A stretch of 42,727 nucleotides of DNA. Origin: Ilumatobacteraceae bacterium. Its GTDB lineage: Bacteria > Actinomycetota > Acidimicrobiia > Acidimicrobiales > Ilumatobacteraceae. Each line of letters begins with the position of its first letter. Position 1 is the stretch's first letter. The notes beneath the pieces are model-generated. The model was not told the DNA's origin and did no database searches. It worked only from the letters and a program-made list of their open reading frames with translations. The stretch covers positions 19,140 through 61,866 of the forward strand of contig JANQYF010000029.1 of assembly GCA_030729045.1 (NCBI GenBank). Direction: 5' to 3'. The position numbers and the translations under genes were made by a program. Positions 23,672-36,291 of the stretch are shown in pieces.

Positions 23672-23757
23672 TTCTCTAACGCTACGCATATTCGCTCGTG
23701 AAGTACACAAATTCTTAGAGTGACGCGTGTCGCACCACACCCGAGTACCGTTCGGAT

Positions 23758-28235: not shown

Positions 28236-28314
28236 ATCAAGAGACTAGGCGTGAGGGCCTAAACAGACATCACGGGTGCTCTGAACCCCTTACTTATTCA
28301 CTAGCGTTTAGGTC

Positions 28315-33280: not shown

Positions 33281-33868
33281 TTAATTCTCATACCTACTGA
33301 ATAGCTCTCGCGCATTCGGTTCCATTTCTGGTCCGAGAAGAGACATCGCACGAATGCGAGCTGGGGCTTCTTCATCTGGTCCTTGCAAAGTGACGAGCCA
33401 ACCGATAGCGCGCTGAACATCAACTGATCCGTGCCGCAACATTGACTCGATATCAACCCAATCTTTACTGCGGTTAAATAGTGCTTTCAAAACGGTGAGA
33501 TGAGTTGCCGAGATATACGGAAGTTCTCGATCGCCAAATGGACGTCTTGACGACATCATGCGCATCTCGTCATGGAATACATGTTCTGCAAGAAAGATGT
33601 CGAGGGGGTATCGGCCGACAAGCAACCGCACTTGACCATCTCGCTTCAACAATGCAACCTGTTCTTCAGTGGCTTGAACTAGCGGGGACAAAGCTTCAAT
33701 GACGATTTCGGCGTCATCCTTAAGCACGCTGATATTGACATCAACGTCCCAAGTCGTACGCGGCTCGGCCACATAATGCATGAGCGCGAGTGCGCCGCCA
33801 AAAGCATGTTCTAGACCGGCATCATCCAAGGCCTTGTGGGTTGCAAAAATAAGTTCAGCGAACAACAT
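33281..33868 (-). CDS. Nucleotidyltransferase-fold protein (AbiEii/DUF6036-like), putative toxin
   Basis: GLEHAFGGALALMHYVAEPRTTWDVDVNISV (GG...R.T.DxD); overlaps the HTH gene by 14 nt. Confidence 0.75.
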   Translation of the reverse strand: MLFAELIFATHKALDDAGLEHAFGGALALMHYVAEPRTTWDVDVNISVLKDDAEIVIEALSPLVQATEEQVALLKRDGQVRLLVGRYPLDIFLAEHVFHDEMRMMSSRRPFGDRELPYISATHLTVLKALFNRSKDWVDIESMLRHGSVDVQRAIGWLVTLQGPDEEAPARIRAMSLLGPEMEPNARELFSRYEN

Positions 33869-34172
33869 CTTGAAACCTCGGAAATTTTAAGTACGGATCG
33901 GCTGGCCGAATGTCGACCATGTCAACTATCGACAAGAGATCCGCCATCATCTCGCCACGTTGCACTAGTTCTGGTAACACCGGAGTGAGATGCACTTCCA
34001 CTTCCCAACCCGCAACGCGCAAAATTCTGTTCAGGGTGTCGATCGTTGGGGATGATTGCCGTGCTTCATATTTCACGATGGCAGCGGGCGACGTACCCGC
34101 ACGACGAGCAAGTTCCCGTTTGGACAAACCTGACTTTTCTCGAGCTTCCCTGATGACCTGTGAAACGTCCAT
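33855..34172 (-). CDS. XRE-family HTH protein, putative antitoxin
   Basis: VIREAREKSGLSKRELARRAGTSPAAIVKYEARQSSPTIDTLNRILRVAGWEVEV. Confidence 0.92.
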   Translation of the reverse strand: MDVSQVIREAREKSGLSKRELARRAGTSPAAIVKYEARQSSPTIDTLNRILRVAGWEVEVHLTPVLPELVQRGEMMADLLSIVDMVDIRPADPYLKFPRFQDVVR

Positions 34173-34951: not shown

Positions 34952-35758
34952 TCACACAACACTGCGCCGAAGAAGTTCATCGGCAGCAGGGCACGCCTTC
35001 GTGCGGGCAAGAGTGTCAGCAGTACCTGACGTAATGGTTGGGGCAAATACGGAAGTGACGAGTGCGTGTGGCACAACATCAAACCCTGACGCCCATGGGT
35101 CTGGACGATCACGCACTCCGGCAACCATTGCTGTAAACAATCCGTCTGGCAAGCGTGTGCCTTCAGATGCCACCATCCACACCGGTTGCTCGACGCAATA
35201 TGCGACAGTGGCAAGCGCCAATGAACCACCTGCGCACAACACACTGTCATTGCCGACTGCGAGTGCGGACAAAATTGTTGCGTCAGCGCATTCAGCTGCC
35301 GATGCAAGACCTTCAGGTGCGACTAGTTCGCAATTCACTTCGCGACGAGACAAGTAACGCAGTGCGTCTTGACCGTCACCCAATGAATCGACAACCAGTG
35401 CGTGTATGTCTCCGCGTCGTGCCAGTGCATCAACCAAATGACCAGACCAACCAATCATGCAAATGGTTGACGCACCATCAAGTGCGTCAACAAGATTTGT
35501 GGCTGTGGGGTCATTCGCAATTCGACGCGCCAAATCGTCAACGTCTCGGTACGGGTCCATTGAAGTCACTGCATGAGCACACACAGACCACAACGGAGCG
35601 TTTGTGGGGTGATGTTCCACCAACCGACGAGCGGCCACCAAAGCTGCAGCCGGGTCGCGGGAAATGCCCGCGAGAGCGTCGGCCGCACCCATGGCAACTT
35701 CCACCGGGTCTGCCCCGTGGGCTCGCGCCACATAACGGAGATGCTCGATGGGGTGCAT
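34952..35758 (-). CDS. Conserved hypothetical, eIF-2B/ribose-1,5-bisphosphate isomerase-like fold suspected
   Basis: Rossmann-like SRREVNCELVAPEGLASAAECADATILSALAVGNDSVLCAGGSLALATVAYCVEQPVWMVA resembles the eIF2B/MtnA C-terminal domain. Confidence 0.6.
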   Translation of the reverse strand: MHPIEHLRYVARAHGADPVEVAMGAADALAGISRDPAAALVAARRLVEHHPTNAPLWSVCAHAVTSMDPYRDVDDLARRIANDPTATNLVDALDGASTICMIGWSGHLVDALARRGDIHALVVDSLGDGQDALRYLSRREVNCELVAPEGLASAAECADATILSALAVGNDSVLCAGGSLALATVAYCVEQPVWMVASEGTRLPDGLFTAMVAGVRDRPDPWASGFDVVPHALVTSVFAPTITSGTADTLARTKACPAADELLRRSVV

Positions 35759-35763
35759 GTTCT

Positions 35764-35785
35764 CAACGCTACTGAACTAGCGTTG
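35764..35785. promoter_or_regulatory. 22-bp palindrome CAACGCTA-CTGAAC-TAGCGTTG forming divergent -10 boxes
   Basis: TAGCGT on each strand (35778-35783 plus, 35766-35771 minus), each exactly 7 nt from a start codon (GTG 35791, ATG 35758). Confidence 0.7.
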
Positions 35786-35790
35786 AAGCC

Positions 35791-36291
35791 GTGGCAACCG
35801 CATCTCTCCCCAACCCCAGCATGGACCTCACCCTCACCCCCCTCAAAGGTGACGCGAAGACTCTTCAACAGTGGCTCACCACTTTTCACCTTGCTTCTGT
35901 GGTTCTCGACCCATTCACGAACGAGAGCTCGTGGATTCTCGAAACCGCTGTCCGCATTCTTCGTCAATTCTCTGGTGCCGCAGTTCGTATCAACTTCATT
36001 GTCACCTGCGAAGCAAGCGATGCTCGCGCATTCCTTGGTCCATACGCCGACGAGTTCTTAGTCTTCTGTGATCCAGATCGCGTTGCGGTGAAGGCACTCG
36101 GATTATCCGAACTACCTGCATTTGTTCTCATCAAGTCTGACGGATCTGTACCGAATGCAGCGCAAGGCTGGACATCAGCTGACTGGAAAGAAGTTGCCGC
36201 AGCCGTGGCAGCCCTGACCAACTGGTCTCGACCCACCATTCCTGCGCCCGGCGACCCTGGTTCATTTCGCGGCACACCCGCACTTGTCTGA
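35791..36291 (+). CDS. Hypothetical protein, possible thioredoxin-like fold without a CXXC motif
   Basis: VRINFIVTCEASDARAFLGPYADEFLVFCDPDRVAVKALGLSELPAFVLIKSDGSV is thioredoxin-like in pattern. GTG start. Confidence 0.62.
   Translation: MATASLPNPSMDLTLTPLKGDAKTLQQWLTTFHLASVVLDPFTNESSWILETAVRILRQFSGAAVRINFIVTCEASDARAFLGPYADEFLVFCDPDRVAVKALGLSELPAFVLIKSDGSVPNAAQGWTSADWKEVAAAVAALTNWSRPTIPAPGDPGSFRGTPALV

Follow-up and report, generated by a model that had tools for sequence, protein, structure and literature searches.

Promoters of M. tuberculosis as a rule have TANNNT and lack a -35 element; leaderless transcripts make up 22-26% of the total, and divergent promoters in close juxtaposition are described as common (Cortes et al. 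2013, PMC3898074). A TANNNT motif (TA-like signal) located ~12 bp upstream was inferred to mark leaderless genes (Zheng et al. 2011, PMC3160421). Bidirectional promoters were defined by Warman, Grainger and colleagues by divergent start sites 7-25 bp apart and reciprocally overlapping -10 elements (PMC10268837). All five bidirectional promoters studied in E. coli proved too weak for competition at basal activity; it occurred only on strong activation (PMC12825309). A search for papers on leaderless bidirectional promoters in Acidimicrobiia, covering few subscription journals, returned none.

The locus described here was found in a small freshwater actinobacterium, an Ilumatobacteraceae bacterium, within an analysed stretch of 42,727 nucleotides (hereafter the window). 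The assembly is a 1.13-Mb draft with 51% GC and ~80% completeness, and its nearest relatives in public data are metagenome bins of freshwater Ilumatobacteraceae/Acidimicrobiaceae. The start codons of two divergent genes have 32 bp between them; an earlier note made from the sequence had called this the start-to-start spacing, and the value stands for the stretch between the codons, the start-to-start distance being 33. The locus comprises the following features:

34952 to 35758, minus strand: gene for an eIF2B alpha/beta/delta-like protein of 268 aa with N-terminal helices and a Rossmann-like domain, predicted leaderless (profile, AlphaFold, Foldseek).
35764 to 35785, no strand: 22-bp inverted repeat CAACGCTA-CTGAAC-TAGCGTTG (direct reading; unique in the genome).
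35766 to 35771, minus strand: TAGCGT, the -10 box of the left (eIF2B-like) gene, with 7 nt between it and ATG 35758; TANNNT conserved in relatives, absent in congeners without the left gene.
35772 to 35777, no strand: spacer CTGAAC between the boxes, 6 bp; invariant in the seven nearest congeners, mostly 12 bp in other relatives and otherwise 14-143 bp.
35778 to 35783, plus strand: TAGCGT, the -10 box of the right (thioredoxin-fold) gene, with 7 nt between it and GTG 35791; TANNNT conserved in relatives, retained in nine congeners without the left gene.
35791 to 36291, plus strand: gene for a thioredoxin-fold protein of 166 aa without CXXC, GTG start, predicted leaderless (AlphaFold, Foldseek, weak profile match).

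Direct reading gave the same sequence, coordinates, TAGCGT boxes and 7-nt distances as the earlier note, and one more pair extends the arms to 9 bp (35763-35786, TCAACGCTA/TAGCGTTGA). The exact motif is present as a single copy in the assembly. Both start codons have a purine as first base and a C just before it, which fits a +1 on the start codon.

The reading that we favour, with a probability of about 0.86, is that of two independent, opposed housekeeping -10 elements giving rise to leaderless mRNAs, with a palindrome that is incidental. The 32-bp intergenic region would consist of two oppositely oriented -10 elements for a housekeeping (sigma-A-type) sigma factor, each placing the transcription start on the first base of the start codon, and both the eIF2B-like and the thioredoxin-fold gene would yield leaderless mRNAs. 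Each promoter would be recognized mainly via its own TANNNT box, without a recognizable -35. One polymerase at a time would probably occupy the site, with a small effect on output at ordinary promoter strength. The 22-bp palindrome would result from the coincidence that both boxes read TAGCGT(T), together with their separation by only 6 bp in the close species. The computed part comprises where the boxes lie, their conservation, the turnover of spacing, the loss of an arm together with its gene and the genome-wide frequency; the actual start sites, the sigma factor, steric exclusion and the lack of a regulatory effect we infer.

Both products, described as uncharacterised in the earlier note, could be assigned a fold. 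The 268-aa minus-strand protein matched the eIF2B alpha family profile (E=1e-7), and its AlphaFold model (pLDDT 91) matched eIF2B subunits in Foldseek with E ~1e-12. For the 166-aa protein, the AlphaFold model (pLDDT 94) gave ResA/thioredoxin as top Foldseek matches (E ~2e-8), a weak profile match to DsbE/ResA was obtained, and the plus-strand sequence carried no CXXC pair. Pfam gave no match or model for either family. Judged by predicted fold, neither product is a DNA-binding regulator. The N-terminus of the eIF2B-like family is nearly invariant (MHPIEHLRYVAR), and this family is paired with the CXXC-less thioredoxin-fold family across the bacterial family. Nearby in the window (33281-34172, minus strand), a small helix-turn-helix gene adjoins a nucleotidyltransferase-like gene, an arrangement that reads as toxin-antitoxin-like.

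Conservation was assessed over 53 distinct loci holding both genes. In 50 of these, each gene had a TANNNT 6-8 nt before its start, though hexamers, spacing and start codons varied. The left box was located at 7 nt from the start in 48 loci; the right box was 7 nt away in 23 loci and 8 nt away in 26. Most left hexamers were TAGCGT, the right one being TACGGT, TAGCGT or TACCGT, and the two were identical in 14 and different in 36 of the 50 relatives. The gap between the boxes was 12 bp in 36 relatives from several genera, 6 bp in six (the close relatives of the window), 14 bp in four, and 33, 38, 70 and 143 bp in one each; start codons were 38-39 bp apart in most. Down to 40-60% protein identity, the starts were conserved and the boxes kept their fixed distance from them, and the divergent gene pair is old. 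Among six congeners, the 20-bp core AACGCTACTGAACTAGCGTT showed zero changes while fourfold-degenerate sites there differed by 21-36% (P ~1e-4 for the most distant congener alone). The outermost pairs of the palindrome changed among the closest species without compensation. Four congeners (L018, L023-L025) carried a longer, different palindrome at the same locus, ACGCTAGTGCC-AA-GGCACTAGCGT, with 12 bp between the boxes and one copy per genome. The retained 12-bp spacing, together with well-conserved spacer bases, could reflect more than two independent boxes. Independent boxes do not fully explain this long-lived gap and the palindrome of the four congeners, the latter being nothing that they require.

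Natural variants separated the boxes from the symmetry. In nine congeners (L008-L016) the right gene was present and the left gene was not beside it; CTAGCGT was kept 7 nt from the GTG in all nine and the left arm in none, which makes the palindrome dispensable for the right box. In L010 and L014, it is as if the eIF2B-like gene had been excised. The next divergent start in these two (ATTTCGCCCAT) resembles that of a dienelactone hydrolase gene, which in the window follows the eIF2B-like gene. Within the genus, L017 kept both half-sites with 27 bp inserted between them, resulting in a gap of 33 bp, and in L020 TAACCT replaced the right TAGCGT, giving the boxes TAGCGT/TAACCT. Elsewhere in the family the gap was 143 bp (L030), and it was 70 bp in L078. 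The palindrome as a conserved unit is thus not supported by these alignments: symmetry or spacing was lost with both genes kept (L017 and L020 in the genus, L030 in the family). The earlier note had named such a loss as refuting its proposal; it speaks against the palindrome as the functional unit but not against the promoters, which persisted. Back-to-back leaderless promoters, the other part of that proposal, are supported by the deep conservation of both boxes at a fixed distance from the starts and the leaderless signal of the genome.

For the genome-wide analysis, gene calls were made with a simple home-made script, gene starts being approximate. A TANNNT was located 6-9 nt before the first start codon in 255 of 1035 genes (about a quarter), versus a background of ~4 per position; at these distances the motif was ~15-fold above background. 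No -35 signal was enriched upstream of the leaderless boxes of this genome set, nor were TTGACA-like hexamers at any spacing. The locus conforms to leaderless actinobacterial promoters on both counts, with a TANNNT 7 nt from the start on both strands, at the genome-wide peak distance, and no -35 consensus needed. It had been argued that each -35 region would lie in the start region of the opposing gene. With no detectable -35 signal this argument carries little, although steric overlap is still expected from the spacing.

Tight divergent pairs were frequent. Of the 154 divergent pairs, 24 carried both boxes with starts separated by no more than 50 bp, versus 0-1 in shifted-distance controls, and 15 of ~154 had at most 35 bp. 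The set includes murF/ddl, selA/selD, rnhB and argC pairs, named from reading protein sequences without a family search. Boxes were present on both strands in selA/selD (C31), with 27 bp between starts. Some tight pairs share one -10 within an 18-23 bp intergenic region. In one pair outside the window (L228, G000:C38:53046-53063), 18 bp separate two ATGs (CATTCCCGTAACCTAGCCTGCATG) and a single TAACCTA serves both strands; the distance was 17-19 bp across 18 loci of the genus, several with TACCGTA instead of TAACCTA and the box kept on both strands. The pairs algH/argC (L198, 22 bp), rnhB/MOSC (L258, 23 bp) and murF/ddl (L168, 33 bp), with leaderless boxes on both strands, were likewise conserved across the genus, so that all four pairs compared in this way hold, and the murF/ddl core was unchanged down to ~52% protein identity. 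Since the hexamer changes in the tightest pairs preserve both strands at once, a single -10 would serve both leaderless genes. Two further divergent pairs of the window (23672-23757 and 28236-28314) also carry a TANNNT at 6-7 nt from each start, the starts being separated by 86 and 79 bp.

In two GC-rich relatives of the order, each sampled over 400 kb, 0 of 50 and 0 of 34 pairs had both boxes with starts 50 bp or less apart, one of the two genomes having 75% GC and hence lower power. This suggests a tight layout particular to the compact lineage. The comparisons make it fairly probable that in this compact freshwater lineage divergent pairs have collapsed to promoters running from start codon to start codon and that, in the tightest, one -10 makes up the entire regulatory region of both leaderless genes. 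Tight divergent leaderless pairs are numerous in this compact genome, the locus being one of them. It is real but, with the layout so common, probably no special switch.

Bare inverted repeats are not rare (95 with perfect 9-bp arms and a loop of 0-6 genome-wide, 29 of them wholly intergenic), and the significance of this one derives from two boxes at start-codon distance, not from rarity as a repeat. The probability that two random leaderless boxes of the genome have the same hexamer is P = 0.036, which for the 24 close divergent pairs gives an expectation of 0.9 with identical boxes. The palindromic symmetry is therefore about what chance gives, and the locus is the approximately one expected close pair with identical boxes. 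A hairpin or RNA element was rejected because transcripts would start outside the palindrome; an Rfam search gave no match. A mobile or viral repeat was also rejected, no exact match to the palindrome having been found in viral contigs.

Among the alternatives, an operator is the strongest, though still improbable. A dimeric transcription factor would bind the palindrome, which overlaps both promoters, and repress or co-regulate both genes. The arms perfect over 9 bp, the 20-bp core invariant among seven close species and the longer, different palindrome that four congeners have at this position speak for it. However, exact and 3-mismatch searches of the own and related genomes returned one site per genome, the variant form included, save for a lone 3-mismatch match in one distant genome, and a regulon operator was rejected on this single site. 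Unlike an operator of a dimeric factor, the locus is variable in spacing and symmetry: the outer pairs vary with no compensating change, the two hexamers are unequal in 36 of 50 relatives, the gap ranges over 6, 12, 14, 33, 38, 70 and 143 bp, and the right arm survives alone once the left gene is lost. By fold, moreover, neither product would bind DNA.

Slightly less probable again, and unlikely on its own terms, is a device in which competition of two polymerases results in mutually exclusive, switch-like expression; the earlier note had proposed mutual exclusion and, as a possibility, a switch. Since the boxes lie 6 bp apart, two holoenzymes should not, by geometry, both be able to bind, and exclusion of simultaneous binding is plausible from this spacing. 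Strong activation in one direction can also repress the other at bidirectional promoters (PMC12825309). Against this, none of the five tested E. coli promoters showed competition at basal activity (PMC12825309), and with no sign of an activator at the locus a switch is unsupported. Neither gene encodes a regulator that could provide feedback, the exclusion is not conserved (L030 has a gap of 143 bp, L078 one of 70 bp), and many unrelated housekeeping pairs, for instance selA/selD, murF/ddl and rnhB, share the layout. Least credible is a chance inverted repeat with genes transcribed from elsewhere or by upstream read-through: perfect 9-bp repeats are common, as counted above, but the boxes keep their distance from conserved starts over the identity range given, and divergent neighbours leave space for another upstream promoter only inside opposing coding sequence.

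Two independent leaderless promoters thus remain the preferred reading. Leaderless divergent genes can share almost no DNA, two genes being driven from 18-35 bp because no leader or ribosome site is needed. Such loci offer natural tests of the rules of bidirectional promoters (spacing, shared -10, polymerase competition), as dozens of species are available in which to compare insertions, deletions and gene losses. Like actinobacterial leaderless promoters (PMC3898074, PMC3160421), those of this genome have TANNNT 6-9 nt from the start, no -35 signal and a share of about a quarter of genes; unlike those described, two stand back to back here with 32 bp between start codons, at predicted start sites. 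With prokaryotic bidirectional promoters (PMC10268837, PMC12825309) the locus has in common opposed -10 elements in a short stretch, and from the spacing a polymerase would be expected to face one way or the other, not both at once. It differs from those of Warman, Grainger and colleagues in that its start sites are predicted 33 bp apart and its boxes are separate by 6 bp. At this predicted distance the locus is not a bidirectional promoter by the published definition but a pair of adjacent leaderless promoters; other pairs of the genome, with 17-23 bp, do fit that definition and are more interesting objects than the locus itself.
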